A stretch of 64,000 nt of DNA from Ipomoea triloba (lineage: Eukaryota; Streptophyta; Magnoliopsida; Solanales; Convolvulaceae), in NCBI RefSeq assembly GCF_003576645.1, contig NC_044916.1, forward strand, positions 14,560,574-14,624,573. Direction: 5' to 3'. Below are positions 21,246 to 42,878 of the stretch, piece after piece (position 1 is the first letter of the stretch; each line of letters starts with the position of its first letter). The notes under the pieces are model-generated. The model had not been told where the DNA came from. It did no database searches and worked only from the letters and a program-made list of their open reading frames with translations. The translations under genes and the position numbers were made by a program.

Positions 21246-23043
21246 TGTTGGTCCCAAGGGGATGGGGTACAAGTCTAGAGGGGGGGGTGAATAGACTTGT
21301 ATAAGATTTTGCAAATCTTTTCGACCTCTCGTGTGTATTGAACTTAGGATGTTTAGGTTTGATACCTCACGAGGTGAAGATAAAGTTTTATGCGCAGCGG
21401 AAATGTTATCCCCTTTTAGTTAGCACGAGTTTGAGTTAGTTCGAGAAGTGCGTTTATATGCAGTGCAATCGAGAGGTTAGCGAGAGATAAAAGCAGTAAG
21501 TAAATGCAAGAGAGATTTTTAAGTGGTTCGGCCAACCCGCCTACGTCCACTCTTCTTCCAGAAACTCCCTGGAAGGATTGCACTAAAAAACTTCCCTTTT
21601 TAGTACAATATCGAGTGCTTGAGCTTTGATCACGAAGCCCGCCTCAAGCCTCAGGTTTTTCGCCCCGCTTCTTGTTACTCCACCTCTCGAGCACTTGACC
21701 TTTGATCACCAAGCCCGCGTCAAGCCTCAGGATCTTCACAAGACAGCTTCCAGGTTACTCCGCCTCTTCAAGGTCTTTCTCCCCGCTTCCAGCTACTCCA
21801 CCTCTCGAGCACTTGACCTTTGATCACCAAGCCCGCGTCAAGCCTCAGGTTTCTTTCACTCGGACAGCTGCCAGGTTACTCCACCTCTCTTGCTTAATCC
21901 AAAGCAAGGTGTTTTTGGTTGTCACAGTTGAATGTAACAGACTCCAATCTGACCACAAGCTATCGTTGAATCAACTTTGATGTAGAGCAGCTTCGGTCAC
22001 CTTCTAGATGTACAACAGTTTAAGCTTTGTAACTCTCTTAAACACTAAGATGTGTTTTCTCGCTGTTTTGAATATCAGGATGATATTCCAAATTTAGTAC
22101 TTGCACTTGAACGTTTTTGACAGACACCTCTTAAGAATTTCGAACTGGTTGAACCCCCTGAGCTTTTTTTTTTTTTGTGTCTTCTCGTCCTTATATATGA
22201 GAGTAGAGGAATAATTCCGTTGGAGGGAAAATTATTCCATTTGAAATTTGTTTCCCATGCTGATCATGGGTCTTGCATATTTTCAGCATATTTCATGGAG
22301 TGGTGATCTTGTAACTTGAACCTCTTTGTCTTGTAGTGAATATTCCATAGTTCACTTTCTTGAGTCCATGCTCCACTTTCGTCTTTTGGTAAAAGTTACT
22401 CTTTTTATATTCCCATTATTCCTTGTTTGTAGGGAATCAGACCACTTCAGCATTGGTGCACCTTTTGACCGTTTGTGGTGGAAATCAGACGTGTCATCCA
22501 TTTCCGCCCATTTTGAAATCTTCACGTTCGGCACCTCTTCATTATTTTATCTTCATGATATTCTTCTTCTCCAAGCTTTAAGTATGCTTCCTGATCGTCA
22601 TTCAGCTTTGTTGGAGAATTGTTAGTGTATCGAGACCAAGGTTGATATCTTGATTGCTTGATGTCTCGTACTCAAATATTGAGAGGTCTATCTCTCGAAC
22701 TCTGTTTATGTCTCGAACTAGATAGCTGTATCGAGAGGTCCTACCTCTCGAACTCTGCTTATGTCTCGAGACTTAGTTGATGTCTCGTAGACCCTTATTC
22801 CTCCAGAGTTGTCCCATGCTTTCTTCTGATCTGTCTATATGATTACAACATGAGACTTCTAAGATGTTCAAACAGGTTTACCTTAAGCTTAAATATTTTC
22901 CGAGTTGAGCTCAAAGTTACCCGGTTGTATTTTCGCTCTTGGTTTACTTGTCGAACTTACAGCGTTTTGCCTATGTATCGAGACTTGGGGATTTCTACTT
23001 AACAGTTGGTATCATCAAAACCTATTACATGATGTTCCTAACA
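21246..23043 (-). repeat. Sirevirus 3' LTR
   Basis: Runs TGTTGGTCCC to CCTAACA on the + strand, 1798 bases, and matches 37772-39409 and the solo LTR 46666-48306. Between 21610 and 21890 it has three diverged copies of a unit containing TTTGATCACSAAGCCCGC (S = C or G). It also carries several CTCTCGA / TCGAGAG motifs (near 21469, 21684, 21802, 22689, 22733, 22745). Confidence 0.9.
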
Positions 23044-23066
23044 ATTTCCCCCTTTTTGATGATGCC
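23044..23066 (-). other. Sirevirus polypurine tract
   Basis: On the - strand AAAAAGGGGGAAAT directly precedes the LTR edge TGTTAGG, as expected for the plus-strand primer of copia elements. Confidence 0.85.
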
Positions 23067-23324
23067 AACACTTATACTTACTCTATATGGCTGATTTGAT
23101 AGAAAGAATTAACATAGATTTTATTTTTCAGCGCATATGGTAAGTTTGACAAATACTCTACTAAAATAGTACTCACGCAACACCCCCAGCAAAAGATATA
23201 TATATGATTATAAAGAGGGAATGTTTACAAAGCAGAGTTTAGTAGGAAAGATTAAAAGAGATAAGACCAAGAACAACATAGACATCAATACATTGAAATA
23301 AGATGGAGTTTGGACCACGAGAGC

Positions 23325-26300
23325 TTACTTCTTGTTGGCTTTCCTCTTCTTGTTAATGGCTTCTCGTGTCTTGATGGGGTCTTTCGGATTTACCAGGCTT
23401 AGGTATTCATCTGTGACATCTAGATGCCTGTAGTTCCTGTAGGCTTCCCCCACGAACTCACCATCAATTACTCCATCTTTCCACCAGGCAATGCATTCTT
23501 CTGGAGACATATTGCTGTGTGTAGATATCCCAGTGGTTTTCAAAAGCTTGAATATCTCCAGGGTCAGAATTTGTTCAGTGTCTTCTCTGCTCCCAAACTT
23601 AAAGCTTGTCATGAGAAGATCTATCTTCCTTTCTTCTTCTAACTGTTGTTCTTGTCTTTTTCTTCTTCTTTCTCTGTCCTCTTCTCTCCTTCTCTCCATT
23701 TCCAGTGTGCGCTGGACCCTTAGATTTTCTGCCTTTTTGGCATCCTCCATTGCTTTGCTCATGATTCTTGGTATTTTTGGAGGTGGTCCAGCTGGTTCAC
23801 TTGCTGCCCTTTTCTTGCCCGTTGTATTTTCCCCCTTCTTTTTCCCTTTATTTTCCCCCTTGTTGGCATCATCAGCACGGGAGAGGAGGATGGACATACC
23901 TTCGAAGATTGCTTGAAGTTGGGCAGGCACTTGGTTCGACAGGTCATCGAGTATGGCCTTCATCACATCCTGTCGAAGTTCACTGGAATATTGGAAGGCT
24001 CGAAGCTCTGCTCGCATCTCGGCTAATTCAGCCCTCGCACTTGCAGCCTCTGCTCGAGCTACAGCGGCTTCATCAGTGGCTTTCCGTGCTGCATCCTCAG
24101 CCCATATCGCCTGTTCGAGAAGTTCGGCATGACGGCCTTGGGATTCACTTGTGCCAGCAGCAGGCATTGCAGCATTGCGGACCACAGCGAGTATTCTTTC
24201 GAGCTGAGCCATCTTCTGAGATTGATCAGCCATGAATTGACGCACTTCGCCAATGAAGACTTCTTCGGCCTGTTGATCATAGTCAGAAGTAGGAGATGAG
24301 GATCGAGATGTACCTTTCGTCGGAGGGGACTTGGGTGCTTCCAGATTTCCACCCATGACTTGCAATTGCGAGTCCACCTCTCGATTTAACGTCTGAGGAT
24401 CCACAGGGACACAAGGTTCAGAGCTCGAAGGTAGCTCCATGTCAGGTGCTTCCCGATTTCCACCTGAGGGATGGATCACTTCTTGCTCCTCACCTCTCGA
24501 ACCTGGAGCCTCAGCTTCAGCAACTGTGGAGATAGGGTCAGCCAGAGAGTGTTCTTCGGTATTGGACGCTTCCCTGTTTTCATCCAATAGAGGTTCCCCC
24601 TCAGCATCACCTCTCGAACCAGTGCTGGGAACTTTGTCATCTGCTGGTGAGGTTGGAGACGTAGTGTCGACAGGTGCTTCCGGGTTTCCACCTTCGATGG
24701 TATCATCAGTACTCCTCGAACCAGCAGGACTTGGGGCATTCTGCTCATGTTGCTCATTTGACTGCATTTCAGTCTGCTCCGATGAGTCTGGAATGATAAT
24801 TATTTCAGGAGCAGTAGGAAAACCCGGCAGTGTGAGCAACGGAACTTCACCCTCTCGAATTGTCTGTGCTTCATCAGTAGTGGTCGAGGGTGTGGACTCA
24901 GGTGGTGGCAAAAGTAGAACGGTGTTAGGTGCCACTTGAAGTGCTTCAGAGGTCTCGGATTCACCTCTCGAAGCTTCTACCTGTTCGTCCAGAGCAGAGT
25001 TGCTGACTTGGGACAGTGGGATTGCGGCTGTTGCAATATCATCGTGAGCAACCCCAGAGGTCTCTCCTGGACCTCTCGTGAATTCAATGTTCTGTCCCAA
25101 GGAGATGGCAGTGGCGAGCCTGATATCTTCTCGAAATTGTGCATCTAGTTCTGGATCCTCCTCAGGCTCAACCTCGGTTTCTTCAGCTATTCCTTTGCCC
25201 TTATCAGTTCTTCCACTGTTCAGTTTAGCCACTCTTGTTTCGTGGGCAAGGTCTAGGAGATGATGAGCTGGGATCTCGGAGATGCCCAACCACTGGAGTG
25301 CAAACTGCTCTTCTGCCTCCATTTCGGCTGCTTGACTCATCAATTGAGTGAAAGAACTGGTTCTCCAGTTGATCCACCTGATCACCCTGGAGAAGTCATC
25401 AAGAGTGGGTGCTTCCACTGCCAACTGAGTGGAAACTTCTTCATATAAGTCATCCCGCCCATCAGAGATGATTTCAGTAGCAGAGATTGCTTCGTCTATC
25501 TGAGCTGTGATCTCTCGACTATGCTCCAAGAGATCATCTCCCACCCTGACTGTGTAGTCTGTCTCTCGAACCATCTCACATGGTTCTTCTGCATCCCCTT
25601 GTACTGGATCACTGATCCCAGTACCTTCAACCTCTCGAGCCATCTCTCGAGATAAACCAACAGAGTCACCAGTACCCTCAGCAGTAATATCATCATTAAC
25701 ACACAAATCTCTTGACAGGGACCTGGTAGGGGGCACTCTCTCAACCTCAGTGGCCAGTGTAGCCTGAGGTTCCCCCTGGGCTTGTGCCCTGTCCTCGAAG
25801 GGTACTTGTATAACTGACGGTTCCACCTCTTGAACCCGGGTGACAGCAACAGTTTTGGCTTTCCTAGCCCTCTTTGGCAGATGAACCCTTTGTATCAGTA
25901 CATCGAGAGGTTCATCATCAGAATTCTTTTCCTCGGTTTGGGCTTTCCTTTTGCCCCTTCCTTTTGGCTGTGAGGGAGAAGGTGCAGCCTTAACACCTTT
26001 AGTTTTGGGGACTAGAGATTTCGTCCTACCCATATAGGTATTTCGATGAATCTCTTTTCCCTCCCTCAGTTCGAAGCCCTTCAGGCTTAGGAGAAATTGC
26101 ACAACAAAGCCGAAACCAACCTTTTTACTGATCGACAGGTTGGCGTTGGAGACTGAGCGCATCACTTGCTGTTGGAGGAAGTTGAAGATAATATGTGCCC
26201 AGTCCAGCTTGTTGTTGTTCCAAATGGCATGGAGGATTTTGAGGAGGTCTAGACTAACCTCGTCAGTTCCGGACACCTTGCCGAGCACAAACTTCATGAT

Positions 26301-26798
26301 TAGGTCGGCAGCGAGAGCAAACCTCTCCTTTAGGTGGTACTTGCGGAGGGCAGAGGATGCTCTGGGTGGTGCAGTCGCTAGTCGGATTTTCTCCCAGAAG
26401 GCTTGCTTGTCCAAGTCGTAATCCGATAGATGCTTGACTGCTTCCTCCGATGACGCGAAATCAAATGCCGCTCTGAGGTCACCTACAGATGTTGTGATGG
26501 GAAAATCATTAAAGCGGCTTTCGATTTTACCCTTCGTGACCTTGGCATTTGCGAACCATTCTGTGAAGTCGAGGGGGTGAACGGTCCCGTAGTCGTGCGT
26601 CATGTATTTCATCAGTCCTGCTTTCTCAAACTTCTTCAGGACTTTTTCCGCCATTTTTGGATTAGGGGAGTTGGTGATGAAGCCATTTCTGTCAAGGATA
26701 CTCCCCGCCTTGACTTGTTTGATCTGAGAGCGAATGTGTAGCAACTCCCTCTGATATGCGTCGGAAGATGAGGTTGATGTAGAGGATTCGGACGCCAT
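23325..26798 (-). CDS. Sirevirus accessory protein in the envelope position (intact copy)
   Basis: An intact 1157-residue ORF between pol and the 3' LTR, on the element's coding strand. The start MASESSTSTSSSD is shared with the second copy. Residues 1-250 look globular and resemble the putative plant transposon protein domain found in many unnamed plant proteins. Residues 260-320 are basic (KGRGKRKAQ, LPKRARKAK), suggesting nuclear import. Residues 320-860 are acidic, Ser/Pro-rich and contain spaced GGNxEAP-like repeats. Residues 880-1080 are Ala/Glu/Arg-rich with likely coiled coils (AEAASARAELAEMRAELRAF; RRREEDRERRRKRQEQQ) and another basic patch. A short C-terminal domain holds PEECIAWWKDG. 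No signal peptide or hydrophobic membrane segment is visible, so an envelope role is unlikely. Function unknown. Confidence 0.8.
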   Translation of the reverse strand: MASESSTSTSSSDAYQRELLHIRSQIKQVKAGSILDRNGFITNSPNPKMAEKVLKKFEKAGLMKYMTHDYGTVHPLDFTEWFANAKVTKGKIESRFNDFPITTSVGDLRAAFDFASSEEAVKHLSDYDLDKQAFWEKIRLATAPPRASSALRKYHLKERFALAADLIMKFVLGKVSGTDEVSLDLLKILHAIWNNNKLDWAHIIFNFLQQQVMRSVSNANLSISKKVGFGFVVQFLLSLKGFELREGKEIHRNTYMGRTKSLVPKTKGVKAAPSPSQPKGRGKRKAQTEEKNSDDEPLDVLIQRVHLPKRARKAKTVAVTRVQEVEPSVIQVPFEDRAQAQGEPQATLATEVERVPPTRSLSRDLCVNDDITAEGTGDSVGLSREMAREVEGTGISDPVQGDAEEPCEMVRETDYTVRVGDDLLEHSREITAQIDEAISATEIISDGRDDLYEEVSTQLAVEAPTLDDFSRVIRWINWRTSSFTQLMSQAAEMEAEEQFALQWLGISEIPAHHLLDLAHETRVAKLNSGRTDKGKGIAEETEVEPEEDPELDAQFREDIRLATAISLGQNIEFTRGPGETSGVAHDDIATAAIPLSQVSNSALDEQVEASRGESETSEALQVAPNTVLLLPPPESTPSTTTDEAQTIREGEVPLLTLPGFPTAPEIIIIPDSSEQTEMQSNEQHEQNAPSPAGSRSTDDTIEGGNPEAPVDTTSPTSPADDKVPSTGSRGDAEGEPLLDENREASNTEEHSLADPISTVAEAEAPGSRGEEQEVIHPSGGNREAPDMELPSSSEPCVPVDPQTLNREVDSQLQVMGGNLEAPKSPPTKGTSRSSSPTSDYDQQAEEVFIGEVRQFMADQSQKMAQLERILAVVRNAAMPAAGTSESQGRHAELLEQAIWAEDAARKATDEAAVARAEAASARAELAEMRAELRAFQYSSELRQDVMKAILDDLSNQVPAQLQAIFEGMSILLSRADDANKGENKGKKKGENTTGKKRAASEPAGPPPKIPRIMSKAMEDAKKAENLRVQRTLEMERRREEDRERRRKRQEQQLEEERKIDLLMTSFKFGSREDTEQILTLEIFKLLKTTGISTHSNMSPEECIAWWKDGVIDGEFVGEAYRNYRHLDVTDEYLSLVNPKDPIKTREAINKKRKANKK

Positions 26799-27609
26799 TG
26801 ATGAAGGTTAGATGTTTTGGAGGGAATGAGTACTGCGTTTAGTATTTGGGGATTTTGGGTAAACGGTTTTAGCTTGAATCCGGGTAAAGAAGAAGGATTT
26901 GGCTTTTATATCGTGTGGATTCGGGTTGGATATATGGGTAGGGTTGAGAGCTTGACCCAAGGAAGGATACCGGTTTTCTTTAAAGAAGTAAAAGGTCAGA
27001 AATACCCCTAGTAACGGTCAGCGTATATGAAAAATAAGGGTATTTTTGGTAAATTAACAGAGCGGTTTTAGGTTCAGGATAGTGGGGTAATAAAGAAAAG
27101 TAACTATATGATCATGCTCCCACTAATCAAGATAACTCCCTTAAGTGCGGAAAACCGCCAGTAACCGATGACCACGTGGCTAGCATTAATATCCAAAGTT
27201 AGCCGTTTCCTTCATGTATTCGTTGAACTTATCGGATTCACCTCTCGAAGGTGAAATGTCTTCCACATGAGTTTAAGGATCTTCCCCCTGAGTGATTGAT
27301 CCCTAAACCTCCTTATTCCTCCGTCTTGATCTGGTTAAGGATCTTCCCCCTGAGTGATTGATCCCTAACCCTCCTTATTCCTCCGTTCAGAGATATCAGT
27401 TTGTTATCTTTCGAAGTGACCTCTCGAACTACCCTCTCGAACTACCCTTCTTCGAGGTATAGCGTATATAGACAAACTGATCGGGTGACCTCTCGAACTA
27501 CCTTTCGAACACAGATTGCGAGAGAAACAAGTTTGATTCATCTAAAAGATATCACTTAAGTTCATTTAGTGATTTCCAGATACATTACATATGAATCAAT
27601 ATCCTATTA
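26799..27609 (-). promoter_or_regulatory. Upstream region of intact accessory ORF
   Basis: Non-coding; similar along most of its length to 30662-31475 upstream of the second copy. It includes four CTCTCGA motifs (27242, 27421, 27432, 27489). Conservation of this segment with the ORF suggests a duplicated gene-plus-promoter unit. A promoter here is inferred only from position. Confidence 0.45.
27278..27384 (-). repeat. Two direct repeats with polypurine-like core
   Basis: A ~63-base unit containing GGATCTTCCCCCTGAGTGAT and CTCCTTATTCCTCCG is present twice in tandem. The - strand core GGGGGAAG resembles the element's polypurine tract. The same pair is at 31139-31246. Confidence 0.8.
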
Positions 27610-27610
27610 N

Positions 27611-30600
27611 CTTCTTTTTCCCTTTATTTTCCCCCTTGTTGGCATCATCAGCACGGGAGAGGAGGATGGACATACCTTCGAAGATTGCTTGAAGTTGGGC
27701 AGGCACTTGGTTCGACAGGTCATCGAGTATGGCCTTCATCACATCCTGTCGAAGTTCACTGGAATATTGGAAGGCTCGCAGCTCTGCTCGTAACTCAGCT
27801 AGTTCAGCTTTCGCACTTGCAGCCTCTGCTCGAGCGAGAGCAGCCTCATCGGCAGCTTTCTGTGCTGCAGTATTAGCCCATACTGCCTGTTCGAGTAGTT
27901 CTTCATGATTGGCCTGAGACTCGGTTGTGCCAGCCACAGGTAGTGCAGCATTTCGAACAATGGCCAGTACGCGCTCAAAGCGAGNAGATTTCCACCCTTA
28001 ACTTGCAACTGCGAGTCCACCTCTCGAGTAAGTGTCTGAGGAGCCACAGGGACACCGGGTTCAGAGCTCGAAGGTAGCTCCATGTCAGGCGCTTCCCGGT
28101 TTCCACCTGAGGGATGGATCACTTCTTGCTCCTCACCTCTCGAACCTGGAGCCTCAGCTTCAGCAACTGTGGAGATAGGATCAGCCGGAGAGGGTTCTTC
28201 GGTATTGGACGCTTCCCGGTTTCCATCCAATAGAAGTTCCCCCTCAGCGTCACTTCTCGAACCAGTGCTGGGAACTTGGTCATCTGCTGGTGAGGTTGGA
28301 GACGAAGTGTCGACAGGTGCTTCCCGGTTTCCACCTTCGATGGTNNNNNNNNNNNNNNNNNNNNNNNNNNNNNNNNNNNNNNNNNNNNNNNNNNNNNNNN
28401 NNNNNNNNNNNNNNNNNNNNNNNNNNNNNNNNNNNNNNNNNNNNNNNNNNNNNNNNNNNNNNNNNNNNNNNNNNNNNNNNNNNNNNNNNNNNNNNNNNNN
28501 NNNNNNNNNNNNNNNNNNNNNNNNNNNNNNNNNNNNNNNNNNNNNNNNNNNNNNNNNNNNNNNNNNNNNNNNNNNNNNNNNNNNNNNNNNNNNNNNNNNN
28601 NNNNNNNNNNNNNNNNNNNNNNNNNNNNNNNNNNNNNNNNNNNNNNNNNNNNNNNNNNNNNNNNNNNNNNNNNNNNNNNNNNNNNNNNNNNNNNNNNNNN
28701 NNNNNNNNNNNNNNNNNNNNNNNNNNNNNNNNNNNNNNNNNNNNNNNNNNNNNNNNNNNNNNNNNNNNNNNNNNNNNNNNNNNNNNNNNNNNNNNNNNNN
28801 NNNNNNNNNNNNNNNNNNNNNNNNNNNNNNNNNNNNNNNNNNNNNNNNNNNNNNNNNNNNNNNNNNNNNNNNNNNNNNNNNNNNNNNNNNNNNNNNNNNN
28901 NNNNNNNNNNNNNNNNNNNNNNNNNNNNNNNNNNNNNNNNNNNNNNNNNNNNNNNNNNNNNNNNNNNNNNNNNNNNNNNNNNNNNACTCTTGTTTCGTGG
29001 GCAAGGTCTAGGAGATGATGAGCTGGGATCTCTGAGATACCCAACCACTGAAGTGCAAACCGTTCTTCTGCCTCCATCTCAGCTGCTTGGGCCATCAGTT
29101 GAGTGAAAGGACTAGTTCTCCAGTTGATCCACCTGATCACCCTAGAGAAGTCATCAAGAATAGGTGCTTCCACTCCCAACTAAGTATTGACCTCTTCTTC
29201 TCCATCATTCTGTTCATCAGACAGAACCCCTGTAGTAGTGATCTCTCGACCATTACCCGAGAGATCATCTTCCAATCTGACATCTGCTATTACTCGAGCA
29301 ACTGATCTATCAATCTGAGCAGATTCAGTGGGTGTCAACTCAACATTTAGAGCATGTTGCACTGGGTCCCTGACCACAATGCCCTGATCATCAGCAGCTA
29401 CCATGTAGTTCTGAGCTTCAGCTGCTGGATCATCTATCTCTCGAACCACCTGTCGTGGCTCTTCTGTATCCCCCTGTACTGGATCACTGATCCCAGTACC
29501 TTCAACCTCTTGAACCTCCTCTCGAGGTTCTAATACAGATTCACCAGTACCCTCAGCATCATTATCAACACACAAATCTCTTGACAGGGACCTGGTAGGG
29601 GGCACTCTCTCAACCTCAGTGGCCAGTGTAGCCTGAGGTTCCCCCTGGGCTTGTGCCCTGTCCTCGAAGGGTATTTGTATAACTGACGGTGTCACCTCTC
29701 GAACCTGGGTGACAGCAATATTTTTGGCCCTTTTGGCCCTCAAAGCAACTCTCTGAATCAGAGCATCCAAAGGCTCATCATCAGAGTCTTTCTCCTTGGC
29801 TGGGGCTTTCCTTTTGCCCCTTCCTTTTGGCTGTGAGGGAGAAGGTGCAGCCTTAACACCTTTAGCTTTGGTGACTAGAGATTTCGTCCTACCCATATAG
29901 GTATTTCGATGAATCTCTTTTCCTTCCCTCAGTTCAAAGCCCTTCAGGCTTAGGAGAAATTGCACAACAAAGCCGAAACCAACCTTTTTACTGATCGACA
30001 GGTTGGCGTTGGAGACTGAGCGCATCACTTGCTGTTGGAGGAAGTTGAAGATAATATGTGCCCAGTCCAGCTTGTTGTTGTTCCAAATGGCATGGAGGAT
30101 TTTGAGGAGGTCTAGACTAACCTCGTCAGTTCCGGACACCTTGCCGAGCACAAACTTCATGATTAGGTCGGCAGCGAGAGCAAACCTCTCCTTTAGGTGG
30201 TACTTGCGGAGGGCAGAGGATGCTCTGGGTGGTGCAGTCGCTAGTCGGATTTTCTCCCAGAAGGCTTGCTTGTCCAAGTCGTAATCCGATAGATGCTTGA
30301 CTGCTTCCTCCGATGACGCGAAATCAAATGCCGCTCTGAGGTCACCTACAGATGTTGTGATGGGAAAATCATTAAAGCGGCTTTCGATTTTACCCTTTGT
30401 GACCTTGGTATTTGCGAACCATTCTGTGAAATCGAGGGGGTGAATGGTCCGGTAGTCATGCGTCATGTATTTCATCAGTCCTGCTTTCTCAAACTTCTTC
30501 AGGACCTTTTTCGCCATTTTTGGATTAGGGGAGTTGGTGATGAAGCCGTTTCTGTCAAGGATACTCCCTGCCTTGACTTGTTTGATCTGAGAGCGAATGT

Positions 30601-30661
30601 GTAGCAACTCCCTCTGATATGCGTCGGAAGATGAGGTTGATGTAGAGGATTGGGACGCCAT
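27611..30661 (-). pseudogene. Sirevirus accessory protein, second diverged copy (broken)
   Basis: Starts at 30661 with MASQSSTSTSSSD and aligns with the intact copy for about 490 residues, nearly identical in the N-terminal domain but clearly diverged after residue 260, for example a PAKEKDSDDEPLDALIQR stretch and an extra segment before the break. A TAG follows residue 493 (29180-29182), where the intact copy reads Gln. Homology continues in frame to 28986, is lost in 641 Ns (28345-28985), returns in the GGNREAP repeat zone and coiled coil, crosses a single N at 27985, and ends at the N at 27610 before the C-terminal domain. The divergence shows it is not an assembly echo of the intact copy. 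Confidence 0.75.
28345..28985. other. Assembly gap (641 N)
   Basis: Unknown sequence inside the second accessory ORF. Long ORFs drawn across it are not evidence of coding. Confidence 0.99.
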
Positions 30662-31545
30662 TGATGAAGGTTAGATGTTTTGGAGGGAATGTGTACTGCG
30701 TTTAGGATTTGGGGATTTTGGGTAAACGGTTTTAGCTTGAATCCGGGTAAAGAAGAAGGATTTGGCTTTTATATCATGTGGATTCGGGTTGGATATATGG
30801 GTAGGTTTGAATCTTTGATCCGAGGAGGGATACCGATTAATTTTGAAGAAGTAAAAGGTCAGAAATACCCCTAATAACGGTCAGCGTCTATGAAAAATAA
30901 GGGTATTTTTGGTAATTTAACAGAGCGGTTTTAGGTTCAGGATAGTGAGGTATTAAAGAATAGTAACTATATGAGCATGCTCCCACTTATCACGAAAAGA
31001 TTTTTAAATATGGAAAACCGTTAGTAACCGGTGCCCACGTGGCTAGCATTAATATCCATAGTTAGCCGTTCCCCCTCATATATTCGTTGAACTTATCAGA
31101 TTCACCTTTCGAAGGTGAGTTGTCTTTCACATGAGTTTAAGGATCTTCCCCCTGAGTGATTGATCCCTAAACCTCCTTATTCCTCCGTCTTGATCTGGTT
31201 AAGGATCTTCCCCCTGAGTGATTGATCCCTAACCCTCCTTATTCCTCCGTTCAGAGATATCAGTTTGTTATCTTTCGAAGTGACCTCTCGAACTACCCTT
31301 CTTCGAGACATAACGTATATAGACAAACTGATCGGGTGACCTCTCGAACTACCTTTCGAACACAGATTGCGAGAGAAACAAGTTTGATTCATCTAAAAGA
31401 TATCACTTGGAACATATCCTTAAGTTCATTTAGTGATTTCCAGATACATTACATATGAATCAATATCCTATTAGATTCCCTAGAAACTTTTGTTTGGCCT
31501 TGGTCAGCCTAATAGGAATCTATCGTTAAAGCAGGAACTAGCCAT
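30662..31545 (-). promoter_or_regulatory. Upstream region of second accessory ORF
   Basis: Counterpart of 26799-27609, with the polypurine-like tandem pair at 31139-31246 and CTCTCGA motifs near 31286 and 31341. From 31476 on it continues into the small ORF region and has no match near the first copy, so the duplication boundary lies at about 31475. Confidence 0.45.
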
Positions 31546-32041
31546 CTAAAGTCCTATTTGTCTAATAACAGAACTAGGGGTGGCTATTCCCTTTTCTTGT
31601 TCTTCTCTCCGGAGCTGCTTACTGTAGTTGGGAGTGACCATCTTCATCGCTAATCCTCTTAATGTCTTTGGATTAGGTATGATCACCCCTTTGACTGCTT
31701 CTGACCTCAAAAAGTCCCATCTGGTCTTCCTCTCCATTTCCCTTGGTTCTCCATTTGGTTGAGGAAGGCCCTTCTCCAGAATGTGCAGCAGTAGGAGTCC
31801 CTCTTGTGCAGGACTCTCCTCCCGATTCCAGTATCCCATCGTTGTGGATCTCCTCGTATTTGGGGATCCATTCACCTTGGATGGGAATAGGATTCTTGCT
31901 TGGATTATCAGGAAGCTCCGCAATCTGTTCACCCTTCGTTGATTCTGGATAGTTTTCTCCTTGAAAATCTTTGGACTTGACTGCCGGTTTCTTTCCTCTA
32001 TAAAAGAATGGAACATCATCTTTTCCTTTCTTTTTCTCCAT
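31546..32041 (-). pseudogene. Small hypothetical ORF downstream of Sirevirus pol, probably frameshifted
   Basis: A frame from ATG 32041 (MEKKKGKDDVPFFYRGKK) encodes 122 residues ending at 31673. An overlapping frame from 32019 ends at 31546, and its second half (RWDFLRSEAVKGVIIPNPKT to the end) looks more protein-like than its first. A single protein of about 160 residues with one frame change near 31760-31800 would fit both. It is basic and hydrophilic with no motif I recognise. It could be a remnant of an older accessory ORF. Confidence 0.35.
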
Positions 32042-32241
32042 GGGAAGTTGATGATATGAACTTCTGAAAGAAACCCTCTTATTTATAGCCCAATAAGGTT
32101 ACCACTTTTGAGTCACGGGATGCAATATGAATGACCATTCAATGCTTGTGTAACTCCAAAGCTGCCATAAAGTTGATGAAACCGCCCCTCACATGCGAAA
32201 CAGTTCATGGCACTAAATACAAGAAGATAAGATTTGACCAT

Positions 32242-35200
32242 TTATCCCAATTCTATCATTCCCAATTCTAACCTTAGTTGAGAGAATCTATTTTCACATA
32301 ACGCTTTTGTGAAAATATCTGCTAGTTGCTCCTCCGTTGCAACATATTCCAAAATAATGTCCTTCCTCTCAACATGGTCTCGGATGAAGTGATACTTAAT
32401 ATCAATATGCTTTGTTCTAGAATGTAACACTGGATTGTGGGTGATGGCAATAGCACTTGTATTGTCACACATGATCTTAACCTCCTTACACTCAACCCCA
32501 TAATCCAGTAATTGTTGCTTCATCCATAAAACCTGAGCACAGCAACTTCCAGCTGCTACATACTCTGCCTCAGCGGTGCTTGTAGCTATCGAATGCTGTT
32601 TCTTGCTAAACCATGAGACAAGTCTTCCACCTAGAAACTGACATGTCCCTGATGTGCTTTTTCGATCTATCTTACAGCCGGCAAAGTCCGCATCTGAATA
32701 ACCCATAAGTTCGAAAGATCCACCTCTCGAATACCAAAGTCCAACACTTTGCGTACCTTTGAGATATCTAAGAATCTTTTTAGATGCATTTAAGTGGCTT
32801 TCCTTAGGACTTGCCTGAAACCTAGCACATACACCTACTGCAAAGGATATATCTGATCCACCTCTCGAATACCAAAGTCCAACACTTTGCGTACCTCGAT
32901 ATGTAGTTTGATCGACCTCTCGACCTTCACTGTCGACATCGATACGTAGAGAGGTTCCCATGGGTACTTTGACCGAGGATTTCCCTTCTATATTGTATTT
33001 TCTGAGCAGATCCTTGGTGTATTTCTCCTGATTGATGAAGATGCCTTCCTTAAGCTGTCGCACTTGTAATCCAAGGAAGTAGTTTAGTTCTCCCATCATG
33101 CTCATCTCGAACTTCCCTTTCATCAATCTGGAGAACTTCTCGCACAAGTCTGGATTGGTGCTTCCAAAAATGATATCGTCCACATAGATTTGCACCAATA
33201 AGATGTGATCCCCGTCCTTAATTCTAAACAATGTTTTGTCCACTAGGCCTTTGGTGAACCCACACTGAAGTAGAAAAGAGGATAAGGTATCATACCAAGC
33301 TCTCGGAGCTTGTTTTAAGCCGTAAAGTGCCTTCTTTAATTTGTATACTTTGTCAGCTCCCACGTCCTTCAAGAAACCCGGAGGTTGTTCAACGTACACC
33401 TCTTCTTCGAGAAGCCCGTTCAGAAAAGCGCTCTTGACATCCATTTGATATACCTTAAAGTCTTTGAAGGCGGCATATGCGAGAAAGATGCGTATGGCTT
33501 CGAGACGTGCCACTGGAGCGAAGGTTTCATCAAAATCTATTCCTTCCTCCTGACAATAGCCTTTGGCAACAAGTCTGGCCTTGTTCCTAACAATAACTCC
33601 ATCCTCATTCATCTTGTTTCTGAAAACCCACTTTATACCAATGACATTTTGATGATGAGGTCTCGGAACTAGTTCCCAAACATCGTTCCGCTCAAACTGA
33701 TGAAGTTCCTCTTGCATGGCTTGCACCCAATCTGGATCACATAGAGCCTCATCGATCATCTTAGGCTCTATTTGAGATAGAAAGCAAGCAAACATGCTTT
33801 CTCTGTATGCTGATCTGGTTCGAACTCTGTCACGTACATCTCCAATCACTTGATCAGTAGGGTGACTTCTCAGCCATCTTAGGTCGGGTTGTGGCTCTTC
33901 AGTTGATACTTCCATTGAAGGTTGAGATGTGGTTTGAACATCTATGATCTGGATTGGATCAACTGAGTCAGGTGCTTTCTTCTTGGTAGATTCTTCATCA
34001 TCTGAATCTGACTGGAGTTCTGCTACGTCTCGAACTATCGACTGCTTGTCTTCGAGAGGTAAGTTTGATCTCTCGATAGACTGTGGCTGATCTTCCTCAG
34101 CTGCTTCCGTTGTCTTTGATGGTTGATCTGTCGATGCCCTTTCATCAAAGGTAACATGTATGGACTCTTCAACCACTAAACTCCGCTTGTTGAAGACTCT
34201 GAATGCTTTGCTTGTTGATGAGTATCCTAGAAATACTCCATCATCTGCCTTTTCTTCAAAAGTTCTTAGTTGAGCCTTCCCATTGTTGTGGATATAGCAT
34301 TTGCACCCGAATGTGTGGAAGTGGCTTACATTCGGTTTTCTTCCATTCCACAACTCATATGAAGTCTTTCCAACTCCTTTTACGATCAAGGACCGATTTT
34401 GGGTGTAGCACGCTGTGTTGATTGCTTCTGCCCAAAATCCTTGTGATATGTTGGCTTGCGAGAGCATGGTCCTTGCGGCTTCTTTGAGAGTTCTGTTCCT
34501 TCTTTCAGCAACCCCGTTCTGTTGAGGCGTTCGAGCAGCTGACAGTTGATGATGAATCCCGTTCTCGTTGCAGTAGCTCTCGATTACTTGATTTATGAAC
34601 TCTCCACCTTGATCTGACCGGATCTTTAGTATCGAGACATCCTTTTCAACTTGAACTTGCTTCAAGAGATTTGGCAGGACAATTTTTGTCTCACTTTTCT
34701 TGGTTAAGAACACGGTCCATGTGAATCTTGTGTAGTCATCTACTACCACAAGAGTGTACTTCTTTCCCTTTATGCTGGGTGGATCCACTGGGCCAAATAA
34801 GTCCATGTGAAGAAGACTTAATGGTCTAGTGGATGATGTCTCGGCTTTGCTCTTGAAAGAGGATTTGATCTGTTTGCAACGTTGACATGCCTCACAAATT
34901 TTATCCTTTCGAAACGTCACTTTGGGCAGTCCTTCCACTAGGTTCCTCTTAGTAAGCTTGTTGATAGTCTTGAAGTTCAGATGACTAAGCTTACTATGCC
35001 AATCCCAGCATAAATCTTCCTTGCTCCTTGCTAGCATACATAGGGATGGTTTTGCAGACCTCCAATCCACTATGTACATGTTTCCTTTCCTTGCTGCTTC
35101 CAAGACGACTTCGAGAGATTCCTCGCTCATAATCTGACATTTGCTTTTGGTGAAGACAACCTTGTAGCCTTTGTCACAGAACTGGCTTGTACTAAGGAGA

Positions 35201-35430
35201 TTGAACTTGAGCCCTTCAACGTAGGATACTCCCTTAATAACCAGCTCATTCTTTTGAATTTCACCAACAGCTTTTGTGCGTCCCTTCTTCTCGTTGTCGC
35301 CAAATGTCACCAAGGGACCTTCGATAGGTTGGATGTTCTCTAGCAGTGTTAGATTTCTCGTCATATGTCTCGAACATCCACTGTCAATGAACCAAACGTC
35401 CCTGGTGTCCTGCAAGGCAATTAAGCAAGT
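32242..35430 (-). CDS. Sirevirus pol polyprotein (protease-integrase-RT-RNase H)
   Basis: The frame opens at 35430 just upstream of the gag stop and reads about 1060 residues. Domains in order: protease with D-S-G in [11 protein letters not shown] (start), integrase zinc domain ([10 protein letters not shown]...CEACQRCK, ~140-185), integrase core with Asp in LHMDLFG, Asp in IRSDQGGEF and Glu in [12 protein letters not shown] with YVDD near residue 745, and RNase H with YSDADFAG and TAEAEYVAA. No stop interrupts it. It lies in the -1 frame relative to gag with a short overlap and no nearby ATG, so translation probably needs frameshifting or another recoding event. One internal oddity is a 42-base segment (32855-32896) that is an exact copy of 32717-32758, replacing conserved sequence between RT and RNase H. 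This probably harms function. Confidence 0.88.
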
Positions 35431-37658
35431 TTAGGTACCCAAACTTTGGGTCCTGGTGGGTTAGTGAGTTTAGGCATCCATTTATACCTTATGCCCATTA
35501 TTCCAGGCCTAGGCGCAATGTAGCCATTGTACGTTTGATAATCATAAGGAATGCTAGCAAATGTTTTGGGCCTCTTTGGTGCATAAATCAACTTAGGTAT
35601 AGACTTTTCGATCGGCTTATGCACCATGCCTTTCATACGCTGTTTGGTCATGTGAAATTGCTGAAAGTGAGGTTTCTTCCAGAACTTGTGATTTGATGAC
35701 CAATTCTCACTAGATGGATAGAGTCTTCCTTTCTCCATCCGTGAGTTCCTAACTATGTGGATCTCAGACCTTCCATATTTTCCTTGAGGCGCATTATATG
35801 GAATGTAGCTCTTTTTGTACTTGGAATGGCCTTGCGAGAGATAGCAAGGTGATCTCTCGATATTGTTTACCCGGCCATTCTTCGTAGCTTTCCTATACTT
35901 TCCATTTCTGGTGTATAGGGACGGTTTATGAATAGCTACTCTGGTCTTTTCTGTTGGTCCTTTATGACCTTTATTTGGTTTGGGTTGAGATCCTCCATTT
36001 CTTGAAGTTCCCAAACCATTGGTCTGTTTATTTCTCGAGAGATGGTCTCGATGGAACCCTAGACCGGTTCTATCACTTGTAGGTCTGTGATCATTCACCA
36101 TTTTCTCCATAGCTTTGGAGGAATTAGTGTATGATGCTATGACCTTTCTAAGATTAAGCTCTCTCGTCTCTCGAGCTTTGCACTCTTCAGTTAGTAGGAT
36201 TACTTTGGCTTCTAACTCACTTACTTTGAGAGTCAGCTCCAAATTCTCTTTCGAGACGTTCTTAAGCATATCTCTTTCAGCAGTTAGCTTGCTGTTTTCA
36301 TCCATCACTCTAGCATGAGTGCTATTGGCGATGTTAAGGTTCCTTCTGAGCGATTCCAACATCTCGAAGGGGTCCTCATCGCTTTTAAATGAAGAACAAC
36401 GAGAGGTAGAAGTAGAGCAGCGAGATGTAGGAGTAGAGGTTACCTCGTTGTCAATGGCCATTAGGCATTGATTCTCCTCTTCCTCGGTGTATAAGCAGAT
36501 GAGCCCCCTCTCATCCTCTGAGCTGCTGCTGCTTTCGCTGGAGCTCGACGTCTCGGACTCCTCGATTGTCCTCTCGAATTCTTCAGCAACAAGCGCCTTC
36601 CTGCGCTGATACGTCTTTGATGATCCTTTGAAGCCACCTTGTGTTGGCTTCTCCCTGGATTCCTCTATTCTCTTGGAATCCTTGCCTTCTTGGCCCTGAT
36701 GCTTGCTTACTAGTGGGTAAGGGCATTCGGCCTTGAAATGTCCCGGTCTTCTACAGTTGTAGCATAGACCCTGATTTTCCTCCTCCGTCCTTCTGGATGG
36801 ATATCTCTCATTTTTCCTTCTTGAGGAGGAAGGTGAACTTTTGTTGCTCTCCTGGTTCATCTTCATGTATTTCCTGAACTTTCTCACAAAGAGAGCAAAC
36901 TGTTCGTCAGACATAACATTCATAGGATTAGAGTCTGACCTTGAAGATGTGGATGGTTGCTCAGCAACAAGTGCTACGTTTCGTCGATCCACAATGTCCT
37001 CATCTCTTGGGAACATCTCGAACTCGAAGGCTTTGAGATCCCGGAAGAGTTTGTCTGTTGTGGTTTCCTTCAGATCTCGGTGATCTCTCATCGTGATCAC
37101 CTTTACTTCCCACTCCTTAGTGAGGCCACGTAAGACCTTCAGGTTCAGCTCCTTTTGTGGGATCTCCTTTTCAAGGTCACTGATCTCGGTTGTGAGCTTC
37201 ATGAACCGAGACTCCATGCTGTCGATGCTCTCTCCTGGCTTCATCTTGAAGTCTTCGAACTTCTTCATGGCCACGGTGAGCTTGTTTTCCTTTTCCTGTT
37301 CGTCACCTTCACCAATTAACATCAAAGTATCCCATACCTCTTTTGCCGTTTTGCACTTCCTCACTTTTGGGAAGATGGTTTCGTCTATAGCTCTGAAGAG
37401 AATATCCTTGGCAATATTGTCCAGGTTGTTTCTCTTCCTATCATCACTGGTCCATTCTTCCCTAGGTTTTGGGATGTACTTTGGTGTTTCTTGGGTTTGA
37501 ACTGCAGCAGTATTAACCATTAGGATCTTGACTGGTCCAGAAGTTATAACCTCGGCCATCTCATCATGGAGGGCTGATAAGTACGCAAGCATGCGTGTTT
37601 TCCAGTCGTCAAACCTGCTAAGATCAAAGAGAAGATGTCTCGACAACATGCTGTCCAT
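35421..37658 (-). CDS. Sirevirus gag
   Basis: A 745-residue intact ORF starting at ATG 37658 ([19 protein letters not shown]), about 110 bases after the primer site. Residues 1-230 form the copia gag core ([33 protein letters not shown]). A zinc knuckle [14 protein letters not shown] lies near residue 297. An acidic Ser/Glu segment (~370-400) and a long predicted coiled coil (~430-515, [20 protein letters not shown]) follow, and the last 230 residues are basic and Lys/Pro/Tyr-rich. Sirevirus gags are longer than most copia gags because of such C-terminal extensions. It ends at TAA 35421-35423. Confidence 0.88.
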
Positions 37659-37757
37659 ATTGAAAAATTATCTCGTGCTTTGAAAATATTTAAGAAGATT
37701 TTTCAAAGAAGGATCTCTAGGCAATATAAACAAAGGTTTATATCGATCAGAGAACTT

Positions 37758-37769
37758 GCTCTGATACCA
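37758..37769 (-). other. Sirevirus primer binding site (initiator Met tRNA)
   Basis: TGGTATCAGAGC on the - strand, two bases inside the LTR edge. It is complementary to the 3' end of initiator tRNA-Met, as usual for copia elements. Confidence 0.9.
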
Positions 37770-37771
37770 AT

Positions 37772-39409
37772 TGTTGGTCCCAAGGGGATGGGGTACAAGT
37801 CTAGAGGGGGGGGGGAAAAGACTTGTATAAGATTTTGCAAATCTTTTCGACCTCTCGTGTGTATTGAACTTAGGATGTTTAGGTTTGATACCTCACGAGG
37901 TGAAGACAAAGTTTTATGCGCAGCGGAAATGTTATCCCCTTTTAGTTAGCACGAGTTTGGGTTAGTTCGAGAGGTGTGATTATATGCAGTGCAATCGAGA
38001 AGTTAGCGAGAGATAAAAACAGAAAGTAAATGCAAGAGAGATTTTTAAGTGGTTCGGCCAACCCGCCTACTTCCACTCTTCTTCCAGAAACTCCCTGGAA
38101 GGATTGCACTAAAAACTTCCCTTTCTAGTACAATAACGAGCGCTTGAGCTTTGATCACCAAGCCCGCCTCAAGCCTCAGGTTTTTCGCCCCGCTTCCAGT
38201 TACTCCACCTCTCGAGCACTTGACCTTTGATCACCAAGCCCGCGTCAAGCCTCAGGTTTCTTTCGCTCGGACAGCAGCCAGGTTACTCCGCCTCTCCTCA
38301 GGTTTTTCTCCCCGCTTCCAGTTACTCCACCTCTCGAGCGCTTGACCTTTGATCACCAAGCCCGCGTCAAGCCTCAGGTTTCTTTCACTAAGACAGCTGC
38401 CAGGTTACTCCACCTCTCTTGCTTAATCCAAAGCAAGGTGTTTTTGGTTGTCACAGTTGAATGTAACAGACTCCAATCTGACCACAAGCTATCGTTGAAT
38501 CAGCTTTGATGTAGAGCAGCTTTGGTCACCTTCTGGATGTATAACAGTTTAGCTTTGTAACTCTCTTCGAACACTAAGATGTGTTCTCTCGCTGTATTGA
38601 ATATCAGGATGATATTCCAAGTTAAGCACTTTGCACTNNNNNNNNNNNNNNNNNNNNNNNNNNNNNNNNNNNNNNNNNNNNNNNNNNNNNNNNNNNNNNN
38701 NNNNNNNNNNNNNNNNNNNNNNNNNNNNNNNNNNNNNNNNNNNNNNNNNNNNNNNNNNNNNNNNNNNNNNNNNNNNNNNNNNNNNNNNNNNNNNNNNNNN
38801 NNNNNNNNNNNNNNNNNNNNNNNNNNNNNNNNNNNNNNNNNNNNNNNNNNNNNNNNNNNNNNNNNNNNNNNNNNNNNNNNNNNNNNNNNNNNNNNNNNNN
38901 NNNNNNNNNNNNNNNNNNNNNNNNNNNNNNNNNNNNNNNNNNNNNNNNNNNNNNNNNNNNNNNNNNNNNNNNNNNNNNNNNNNNNNNNNNNNNNNNNNNN
39001 NNNNNNNNNNNNNNNNNNNNNNNNNNNNNNNNNNNNNNNNNNTATCGAGAGGTCTATCTCTCGAACTCTGTTTATGTCTCGAACTGGATAACTGTATCGA
39101 GAGGTCCTACCTCTCGAACTCTGCTTATGTCTCGAGACTTAGTTGATGTCTCGCAGACCCTTATTCCTCCAGAGTTGTCCCATGCTTTCTTCTGATCTGT
39201 CTATATGATTACAACACGAGACTTCTAAGATGTTCAAAAAGGTTTACCTTAAGCTTAAATATTTTCCGAGTTGAGCTCAAAGTTACCCGGTTGTATTTTC
39301 GCTCTTGGTTTACTTGTCGAACTTACAGCGTTTTGCCTATGTATCGAGACTTGGGGATTTCTACTTAACAGTTGGTATCATCAAAACCTATTACATGATG
39401 TTCCTAACA
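37772..39409 (-). repeat. Sirevirus 5' LTR (with gap)
   Basis: Same ends as 21246-23043. A 405-base N run (38638-39042) hides the middle. Differences from the left LTR include a G-run length change near 37806 and several substitutions, so the insertion is not brand new. Confidence 0.88.
38638..39042. other. Assembly gap (405 N)
   Basis: Unknown sequence inside the Sirevirus 5' LTR. By alignment to the other LTR it should hold mainly LTR sequence equivalent to about 22112-22673. Confidence 0.99.
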
Positions 39410-40802: not shown

Positions 40803-42526
40803 CTCGAACTAGATAGCTGTATCGAGAGGTCCTACCTCTCGAACTCTGCTTATGTCTCGAGACTTAGTTGATGTCTCGCAGACCCTTATTCCTCCAGAGT
40901 TGTCCCATGCTTTCTTCTGATCTGTCTATATGATTACAACACGAGACTTCTAAGATGTTCAAAAAGGTTTACCTTAAGCTTAAATATTTTCCGAGTTGAG
41001 CTCAAAGTTACCCGGTTGTATTTTCGCTCTTGGTTTACTTGTCGAACTTACAGCGTTTTGCCTATGTATCGAGACTTGGGGATTTCTACTTAACAGTTGG
41101 TATCATCAAAACCTATTACATGATGTTCCTAACAGAGAGTTCACCGGCCCTATGTACCGCATGCTTGACTAGACGTCGGATCCTTGGGAGTCTTTGGAAA
41201 TATTTTTTTGGTGTACATATATTTTTGTTGCCTTAGTGATAGCTAGGCATGACCAGTTGCGTCTAGGTTGAACCTTGTTGGTATTTTGGCCCGAGGGGCA
41301 ATCTTATGTATGTATTTTTGCAAGATTATATACTTTGCTTAATGAAGCTTCACCAGTTGATATGTGTGAAAGTGCTAAGTATCTGTTGAGTGATTGTTGT
41401 GATGAGAAGAGTTCCTTTAGCCTGTGCACCTAGAGTGAGGTTCATTGAGGAATGATAGAACTCTCTCTCTAGGTGTGGCGGTAATGCCTAGGATGTACAG
41501 GAAGGTAGGTCCGGGGTGTTACAAAGTGGTATCAGAGCCTAGGTTAAACCTTCGGGAATTAGGTCGAAGCCTAGGTTGTGTGGCCTTGTTGTAGGTCTAG
41601 GATTGAAATTCGGAGAACTCGATTTTCAAAGTCCAAGTTTGATATTTGCTAAGACTGAGCCTAAGTGTGAGTTCTGGAGCGGAGCTGGAGACCAGGCAGC
41701 ATCAAAAAGGGGTACCTCATCATCCGAATTTCGCGAAATCTCCCGATTCTAAAATGCTTTGATTAATACTTGTGTATCTTTATGTGCGTTAATCATTGCT
41801 TATAATTGTTGTGAGTAAGCATGATAGTATAATGCGTTCCTAACTGTTATGCCATAATTGTGGTACCTGGTTGATGAGCATGGCGAAGTGAATGTTAGGA
41901 ATTGTTGGATAGTACTTGGGTAGTTGCTATACTAACTGCGTAGCTAGCTAACTCCTTAAGAGCTTTTATGCTTCAAGAACTAACTTGAAACTGTCGTTTG
42001 GTGAAGATGTCGCCTAGACGAAATATACCGGTCGGTCAGGGCGACGAGATATCGGCAATGGACCGTATGGCTCTCGCAATGGAACAAATGGCTAGATTTA
42101 TGATGGCTCAACAAGTCCAGAATCAAAATAACAGACAGCCGCGAGTTGATTTTGCAAAGGCCATAGCAGGCAGGCAGCCACCATACTTTGCGGGTGAAGA
42201 AGACCCTGTAATCTTGGAAGAGTGGATTAGAACGTTTGACAAGCTGCTCGATGCGGTCAACTGCCCTGCAGATCAGCGAGTATCCTCTGCCGTGTATTAT
42301 CTGACAAAGGCAGCAGATAACTGGTGGTCAACGGCTGGACCCGACTTGCTGCAAGACCCAGACTTCGGCTGGGAGGAATTCAAGGAAGAATTGAGAGGAC
42401 AATTCTATACAGAAAGGATCAAGGGAATCAAGTGTGAGGAATTCCTGCGACTGAAACAAAAGGGAGCGACTGTGCAGGCCTATTATGATCAGTACGTGGA
42501 GCTGATGAGGTTTGCTCAGAACATTG
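40803..42526 (+). repeat. Second copy of 39078-40801
   Basis: From the single N at 40802 the sequence jumps back to the end of the Sirevirus LTR (equivalent to 39078), then repeats the GAGAG junction, Tekay LTR end, primer site and gag start with an offset of 1725. The only differences I noticed are near its start (ACTAGATAGCTG as in the left Sirevirus LTR, instead of ACTGGATAACTG). Confidence 0.85.
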
Positions 42527-42835
42527 TGCCTGACGAAGCCAGTAAGGCGAGGAGGTTCGTACGTGGACTGGATTAGGCTGTGAGAGGGGCGATTGCACCG
42601 TTTACGTGCACTACTCTCAAGGAGGCATATGACAGAGCATCCGACCACTACCAAGTGTACCTGGATCAACAGGAGGTCTACAGCAAGAATAAGAGGAAGG
42701 GGGATGATAGATAGGGAAAGTTCAAGTCGGATAACAAGAAAACCAACCAGGGAAGATTCAATCCGATGCACGGGGAAAGGAAGGGAGGAGAATATCCTAT
42801 CGAGGAATGGAAAGACAACCTGAACCAAGGTTGAT
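42007..42835 (+). pseudogene. Tekay-type gag, degenerate
   Basis: Capsid protein of a chromovirus. ATG at 42007 (MSPRRNIPVGQGD) begins a frame with AMDRMALAMEQMARFM, then the gag core (EEWIRTFDKLLDAVNCPADQ, KAADNWW, EEFKEELRGQFY). It stops at TAG after RRFVRGLD (42576), continues in the same frame with KEAYDRASDHYQVY, meets another TAG near 42712 and a third stop near 42831. The zinc knuckle and the protease that should follow are absent before RT starts at about 42900, so a deletion has removed them. Confidence 0.8.
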
Positions 42836-42878
42836 GACGATGTAGAGGCTGATGTAGTACGCTCGCAAGGGGTGTGAA

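Follow-up and report, generated by a model that had tools for sequence, protein, structure and literature searches.

Activator boxes of the Tnt1 type are repeated in the unique 3' region (U3) of the long terminal repeat (LTR), upstream of TATA, and VANDAL elements are DNA transposons, not retrotransposons. In the consulted sections of Bousios et al. 2010 (PMC2829016), the RM boxes of Sireviruses are described as high-copy palindromic repeats with a CGG-CCG core, forming a cluster in the upper half of the LTR that starts at 200-400 nt and a further group upstream of env, with clusters that mark CpG islands; they are reported as Sirevirus-specific, the only additional copies described being at the beginning of env in two elements, and Tnd-1 is the published exception to the core. 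Those sections mention box I of Tnt1 and name no factor binding the RM boxes. In the consulted part of Hosaka et al. 2017 (PMC5735166), the transposon protein VANC21 binds a 9-nt motif that has built up within the family it belongs to, VANDAL21; VANC motifs lie in non-coding tandem repeats, and those of VANC6 also occur in an unrelated element. Here, a stretch of 64,000 nucleotides from Ipomoea triloba (NC_044916.1, positions 14,560,574 to 14,624,573; hereafter the window, numbered from its first letter) was analysed. Positions 21246-39409 are occupied by a minus-strand Ty1/copia element of Sirevirus type, through which copies of the 7-mer TCGAGAG (CTCTCGA on the opposite strand) are scattered.

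The 7-mer is present in excess, has a narrow sequence requirement, is independent of reading frame, is constrained at the nucleotide level within the Sirevirus family and recurs in other lineages. In its extended form, TCGAGAGRT (R being A or G), it is considered, at slightly better than even confidence, to be a cis-acting recognition site in double-stranded DNA for a sequence-specific, most likely host-encoded, factor in several Ty1/copia lineages.

Counts, coding context and conservation of the motif

A preliminary description of the element had put the number of copies at about 40. On the plus strand of 21246-39409, 46 were counted (37 CTCTCGA and 9 TCGAGAG); the entire window holds 41 and 15, respectively. 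Because the element lies on the minus strand, most plus-strand CTCTCGA copies are sense TCGAGAG. The raw count is inflated by the two LTRs and by a duplicate at 27611-31478. The element is imperfectly assembled, with 23835-27609 repeated at 27611-31478, and non-redundant pieces totalling 12,657 bases therefore served for the key counts. These hold 25 sense and 6 antisense copies (31 in all) against a sense expectation of approximately 2.0, a 12-fold sense enrichment.

The 21 one-mismatch neighbours of the 7-mer total 38 sense copies, approximately 1.3 times expectation, and two of them are themselves in excess (TCGAGAC, 6 against 1.1 expected; TCGACAG, 4 against 0.7). The better unit is the 9-mer TCGAGAGRT (AYCTCTCGA); RT forms the next two bases at 19 of the 25 sense and all six antisense sites. 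The 11-mer ACCTCTCGAAC is present in 11 copies in the element. Four sense sites were set aside as local tandem copies, and the flanks of the 21 that remain are mostly dissimilar. Local duplicates are seen at 21684/21802, 22692/22745, 27421/27434 and 32862/32724. The coordinates first reported were right to within a few bases (24965, 25563, 25903, 27434, 32724, 34052, 35854), apart from a loosely placed 39105, where the true sites are 39097 and 39111. The motif had been said to run through the whole element; LTRs, env, pol, gag and the region before env do carry it, whereas no 7-mer is found in either linker (5', 766 nt; 3', 284 nt) or in the 5' untranslated region (104 nt). In the LTR, sense sites are at positions 293, 346, 1236 and 1354 of 1798.

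Codon-preserving (synonymous-codon) shuffles were made 2000 times per open reading frame (ORF), with a stricter version that also keeps dinucleotides. The env ORF contains 9 sense copies against a shuffled mean of 0.90, and pol 5 against 0.53; neither count was reached in any of 2000 shuffles of either version. For gag (3 against 0.65), 22/2000 shuffles reached the count, and 29/2000 in the stricter version. Chance is thus rejected in env and pol, and taken alone the gag excess is weak. The 17 sense sites of env, pol and gag fall 5, 4 and 8 in phases 0, 1 and 2; all codon phases are used, as first described, and the readings Ser-Arg, Arg-Glu, Phe-Glu-Arg and Pro-Leu-Asp were correct. With the duplicated ORF part included, all 5 SRG tripeptides are spelled TCGAGAGGT, and 12 of 27 RE pairs are CGAGAG, whereas CGA accounts for 23/198 other Arg codons. 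Motif-coded peptides are abundant in the accessory proteins of three relatives. In these, the motif-coded peptide is kept at 18/21 alignable places and other residues are identical at 0.55 to 0.70; in the window's own duplicate the peptide is kept at 2/4.

Twenty 10-kb genome stretches were compared with the window piece by piece. Alignments shorter than 400 nt or above 98% identity were dropped, retaining, among those of at least 250 nt, 30/37 for the LTR, 21/24 for env, 9/11 for the region upstream of env, 9/9 for pol and 7/11 for gag. Sense sites were kept at 75/79 places in the LTR (control words with one CpG, 0.67; other TCGA words, 0.70), 53/65 in env (0.60; 0.67) and 13/14 in gag (0.51; 0.58), and these three pieces carry the retention signal. 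In pol, 24/25 were kept when site 32868, in a patch special to this copy and kept at 0/6, was left out. When sites instead of copies were resampled, the 25 sense sites were kept at 0.82 against 0.61 for one-CpG 7-mers (P = 1/20000; against all 7-mers, 6/20000). In a paired local control, the motif lay above its neighbourhood at 26 of 30 sites (32868 excluded; Wilcoxon, 2e-6). The poorly kept sense sites were 27427 (2/6), 27440 (4/6) and 25638 (4/7).

Symmetric sharing between copies, with the patch masked, was 183/231 for the motif, 9885/21165 for one-CpG words and 1856/3350 for other TCGA words; for copies up to 85% identity it was 30/52, 675/3934 and 156/558. The synonymous test used places with an unchanged amino acid and excluded site 32868 and edge codons. 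Motif codons had changed at 4/230 places and other codons at 1734/15625; the corresponding figures were 1/96 and 220/1363 for CpG codons, and 4/185 and 429/3830 for Arg, Glu and Ser codons. The synonymous and sharing counts pool related copies, which makes their Fisher P too small, and site resampling is the safer figure. Because motif codons resist synonymous change, selection acts on the nucleotides.

Other lineages, element structure and relatives

Two further genomic loci, L152 and L154, gave no match of at least 250 nt to the element pieces; a whole-window search gave one 166-nt pol segment for L152. In matching stretches their pol is 29-33% identical in amino acids to that of the element, and neither has an AGGGGGA octamer. 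By pol identity and the missing AGGGGGA, they probably represent two other Ty1/copia lineages. L152 has two LTRs of 1.16 kb; in each, 3 sense and 2 antisense 9-mers were counted where 0.03 would be expected, and one further 9-mer lies just beyond a 1330-codon ORF. Every internal 9-mer of L154 is in sense orientation (three stretches with 5:0, 1:0 and 4:0, the third of them duplicated; shuffle means 0.02 to 0.04). Antisense sites are present in the LTRs of both, and RT follows the motif at 26/26 copies. No second long ORF was seen in L152; L154 was seen in part only.

Eight further 3-kb stretches at 11-mer hits were assigned to Sirevirus LTR (4, one also with gag), L152 (2), L154 (1) and none of these (1). 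L163 is a diverged L152-like LTR carrying a motif cluster. In L164 (2190-2750), and also in L145 (8500-9090), a TTCGAGAGRT array alternates with GCTACAGTA and shows faint Sirevirus LTR similarity; the motif of the L164 array is in one orientation. Across the window and L135-L162, the density of the 9-mer per 10 kb is 23.5, 14.0 and 19.6 for the three lineages and 2.1 for the rest; as the stretches were selected by the motif, only the contrast counts (nine of 26 leftover 7-mers are the L145 array). Window positions 40843-46888, which hold Ty3/gypsy-type ORFs at 42858-45313, contain no 7-mer. Genome-wide, TCGAGAGRT occurs 38,927 times and the pattern read backwards, a control without CpG, 5,497 times; for the 11-mer the numbers are 7,752 and 280.

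The Pfam order within the element is gag_pre-integrs, rve and RVT_2, placing the integrase ahead of RVT_2 as in Ty1/copia; gag was also detected. The 3' LTR (1798 nt; 21246..23043, minus strand, as are all features below) has sense sites at 22745-22751, 22692-22698, 21802-21808 and 21684-21690 and antisense sites at 22731-22737 and 21469-21475. The polypurine tract (PPT) octamer of Sireviruses is AGGGGGA(G/A), 10 nt upstream of the 3' LTR, the terminal-A variant being published for ToRTL1 and Tnd-1. Here AGGGGGAA stands exactly 10 nt ahead of the 3' LTR. Between 20 and 50 kb in the window it occurs 13 times in sense and never in antisense: once after the accessory ORF, four times inside it, twice before it and six times in the duplicated part, where the Sirevirus expectation is the linker, mostly after env. 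The U3 box cluster (22640..22800; LTR sense positions approximately 245-400) is built of tandem 53-nt units and holds a TCGAGAGGT-3nt-ACCTCTCGA dyad and a GTCTCGAGAC palindrome; TATA-like words are at LTR positions 635, 847 and 1586. A second recurrent word, ATGTCTCGA / TCGAGACAT, is found near the main boxes (22640-22800, LTR copies) alongside the GTCTCGAGAC palindrome. It contains TGTCTC, known as the auxin response element. GTCTCGA is common to genome copies at 0.89 of 81 places.

The accessory ('env-like') ORF (1160 codons; 23325..26807) contains 9 sense sites (24378, 24494, 24611, 24852, 24965, 25512, 25563, 25632, 25644) and one antisense site (25903). Its protein gave no Pfam match at E 0.01; the accessory proteins of five members gave weak scattered matches only, at E 1. 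The peak 19-residue Kyte-Doolittle mean is 1.38, with no strongly hydrophobic segment found, and the predicted structure is of low confidence (mean predicted local distance difference test score, pLDDT, 39). Upstream lie 802 nt (26808..27609) with four sense sites (27242, 27421, 27434, 27490). The second, gap-ridden copy of 23835-27609 occupies 27611..31478 (86-94% identity; gaps at 27610, 27985 and 28345-28985), and its 8 sense sites were excluded from the non-redundant counts; it represents either another element that became joined to this one or a genuine duplication.

The pol ORF (integrase, RVT_2; 32242..35430) has sense sites at 34577, 34070, 32917, 32862 and 32724 and antisense sites at 35111 and 34052. 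At 32850-32907, approximately 14 codons of the reverse transcriptase-RNase H part repeat a stretch 138 nt further on and are unlike the closest relative protein. This is a conversion-like patch, and copies without it exist, because the motif there is present in 0/6 compared copies. The gag ORF (35421..37667) has sense sites at 36571, 36168 and 35854 and an antisense site at 36035. The 5' LTR (37772..39409) is interrupted by an assembly gap at 38638-39042 and has sense sites at 39111, 39058, 38331 and 38209 and antisense sites at 39097, 39045 and 37967; TTGGTATCAGAGC follows it as the primer-binding site, which in Sireviruses likewise comes after the 5' LTR. The string GAGAG flanks 21246-39409 at either end and is read as a 5-nt target-site duplication. 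Observed/expected CpG is 0.70-0.72 in the LTRs, 0.85 upstream of env (the highest of the pieces) and 0.34-0.58 in linkers and ORFs. Elsewhere in the window, repeats of 0.8 to 1.9 kb at 99.8-100% identity stand beside single-N gaps (8938-9740/9747-10549, 15880-16945/16947-18012, 39075-40801/40800-42526, 59587-61479/61494-63386) and look like overlapping contig ends left unmerged.

The genome searched comprised 461,989,178 bases in 17 contigs. The best 150 of 6528 first-look candidates for the reverse transcriptase piece were at 98-100% identity, and the family is therefore young. Of the gag relatives, 31/52 are named Ipomoea (28) or Cuscuta (3). The accessory protein has three relatives, one named Ipomoea triloba and two filed under bacteria. 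Sirevirus-type sequence is filed under Escherichia coli, Morganella morganii and Labilibacter sediminis (P0173, P0174, L001, L002) and is most likely plant DNA. The accessory ORF had no match in plasmids, nor a DNA piece of it in E. coli genomes. A scan of viral contigs with the reverse transcriptase piece found no relative; a scan with a 14-mer matched at least 120 stretches. The contaminant contigs L001 and L002 hold the 7-mer once and twice. TCTTCTG, the strongest word of L002, was considered as a comparable scattered word and rejected; it keeps a single reading frame in the gag and pol ORFs and therefore follows amino acids. PPT-like AGGGGGA words are present in the pol ORF of these contigs, four at L002 4156-4246 and three at L001 1214-1271, spaced by multiples of 3 nt and upstream of the reverse transcriptase match.

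Candidate explanations

Recognition as double-stranded DNA fits best because both orientations carry the same 9-mer, because the U3 cluster is palindromic and ahead of TATA-like words, and because other lineages have the word despite different flanks. Sharing between lineages points to a host factor. On this view, TCGAGAGRT would be recognised by a host DNA-binding protein in several of the Ty1/copia lineages that the genome contains. The Sirevirus would offer this protein a palindromic U3 cluster upstream of the TATA-like words, another cluster ahead of the accessory ORF and individual sites scattered along the ORFs. By analogy with RM boxes and VANC proteins, binding may raise transcription or keep the element body open to it, as a multi-copy enhancer or in an anti-silencing role. 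Among the roles first proposed, that of a factor-binding site appears the best. The usual places to look for regulatory words in retrotransposons are the LTRs and other non-coding regions; this one persists against synonymous change within gag, within pol and within the accessory gene. As it is common to other copia lineages, the factor behind it could be fished out directly.

Several points weigh on the other side. The host origin of the binding protein, itself hypothetical, is argued from sharing between lineages, and pol and gag are unusual places for the DNA sites of a factor. The 1330-codon ORF of L152 contains no 9-mer. The genome-wide control pattern, lacking CpG, is not CpG-matched, and the twenty stretches were selected at places with ACCTCTCGAAC, which favours copies having the 11-mer at some sites. 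Upstream of env, sense sites were kept at 18/27 (0.67), only equal to other TCGA words (0.64; one-CpG, 0.47), and pol alone, at 24/31, was no better than the one-CpG control (0.78; other TCGA words, 0.91). As a set, the six antisense sites show no significant constraint (P 0.13-0.14), with 21475 and 25909 kept at 10/17 and 2/6. In sharing, the motif comes fifth of 23 frequent one-CpG words; three of the four words above it are TCTCGA- or CTCGAG-type words of the same boxes. In the in-window duplicate, 6 of the 10 comparable sense sites are shared, about the number to be expected from its 92% identity, and each of the remaining 4 has a single changed base. The refuting condition proposed at the outset, loss at neutral rates, was survived by the motif on genome copies, although this one duplicate shows no excess retention. 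Finally, the ORFs hold 17 sense against 4 antisense sites, as an RNA role predicts.

A broader form of the DNA reading is more tentative. Several lineages may have converged on one 9-bp word, which in the Sirevirus runs through LTRs and synonymously constrained coding DNA, as an element-wide DNA address code, by which a shared factor would mark the whole element body and counter silencing. A silencing escape code of this kind would carry over to retrotransposons a principle that VANC represents in DNA transposons, and the RM boxes of Sireviruses could gain a testable reader.

The weaker alternative of an RNA-level signal is unlikely. Here, sense UCGAGAGRU in the genomic RNA would be bound by Gag or a host RNA-binding protein, with a role in packaging, export or translation. 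The 25 sense against 6 antisense non-redundant sites and the all-sense internal 9-mers of L154 agree with it, but the strand bias has no significance once the purine-rich coding strand is allowed for (7-mer, P 0.087; 9-mer, P 0.27). The strand excess therefore does not decide for RNA, and a strand-specific function is unsupported. RT also follows 6/6 antisense copies, four of which are well retained (19/20, 6/6, 7/7, 6/6), and antisense sites occur in the L152 and L154 LTRs. Local folding is more stable around the sites than in GC-matched sequence (mean -10.4 versus -8.2; 0/150), but the motif tends to sit paired rather than exposed. A hairpin with the motif in its loop was rejected, stems of at least 5 being found at 8/21 sites against approximately 6 expected, with no enrichment in hairpin loops. 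Facing pairs had been proposed to form hairpins; the pairs 22731/22745 and 34052/34070 exist. An inverted partner within 35 nt (at least 7/9 matches) is present at 8/21 sites against 2.5 to 3.5 expected, depending on control, an excess that is only weak because direct partners are in excess too (6 against 2.4 at 20 nt).

Slightly less probable again is an address read by the element itself, with the accessory ORF encoding a VANC-like DNA-binding protein that finds its own family and other lineages riding free. VANC21/VANDAL21, and the VANC6 motifs reported in an unrelated element in the consulted part of that study, offer a parallel. The richness of the three relatives' accessory proteins in motif-coded peptides and the lack of a strongly hydrophobic segment would suit it. 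The low-confidence structure, the absence of a Pfam match for the window protein at E 0.01 and the scattered matches of the five members argue otherwise, as do the missing second long ORF in L152 (L154 being seen in part) and the placing of VANC motifs, in the same source, in non-coding tandem repeats.

It is very improbable that the motif has no function and that its copies were spread by template switching or slippage in reverse transcription, or ride on codon usage. The four local duplicate pairs and the neutral-looking loss in the in-window duplicate are of the kind expected, but the flanks of the other 21 sense sites are mostly dissimilar, neither synonymous stability nor retention above that of neighbouring sequence would be explained, and the same word is found in other lineages. 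That the accessory protein is selected for short peptides (VREV, SRGE) scarcely merits consideration: peptides of this type are in excess in the three relatives, but the non-coding and LTR copies, the gag and pol sites, the three reading frames, the codon shuffles, the exact spelling of SRG and RE and the synonymous stability are all left out of account, and amino-acid selection had rightly been judged insufficient. Integration at the motif, suggested earlier and favoured by the GAGAG on both sides of the window copy, is equally implausible, as neither TCGAGAG nor CTCTCGA lies within the 25 nt next to any of 23 LTR heads and 19 tails classed as outer (a sample with several duplicates, two heads that are inner with a changed PPT, one without flank and one tail of 9 nt only).

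Comparison with described systems

A literature search for TCGAGAG and retrotransposons returned no such motif by title or abstract start among the matches listed, no paper joining Sirevirus and Convolvulaceae was found, and by title nothing similar beyond PMC2829016 was among the matches listed. Neither synonymously constrained copies inside genes nor sharing across copia lineages was found in print among those matches.

The motif resembles the RM boxes, as far as the consulted sections describe them, in high copy number, dyad symmetry in the LTR and conservation against diverged flanks. Its LTR cluster begins approximately 290 nt in, in the upper half of the LTR (positions 293 and 346, with 1236 and 1354 outside), and a second cluster of four in 802 nt lies upstream of the env-like gene. 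The link to published Sirevirus motifs, left open in the preliminary description, therefore holds for the LTR and pre-env positions and not for the sequence: the core is TCGAGAG, with no CGG-CCG, and is palindromic in the LTR and in a few internal places. Unlike the RM boxes of those sections, most copies are single half-sites, spread through the env, pol and gag ORFs, and the motif is also present in copia lineages without the Sirevirus PPT (L152, L154). Because the CGG-CCG core and the Sirevirus restriction are both lacking, the copies are not RM boxes in the strict sense.

With Tnt1-type boxes the motif shares repetition in U3 upstream of TATA. Boxes of that type are not known from coding regions, although no search aimed at them was made. 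With VANC and VANDAL, as presented in the consulted part of that work, it shares a short exact 9-nt word built up in a transposon family and present in an unrelated element too. The VANC protein was demonstrated there to bind its motif, an action that in the VANC/VANDAL system goes with removal of methylation, whereas here the reader is postulated and the coding copies resist synonymous change. Although the LTR copies are tandem, 17 sense sites lie in ORFs and not in non-coding tandem repeats.

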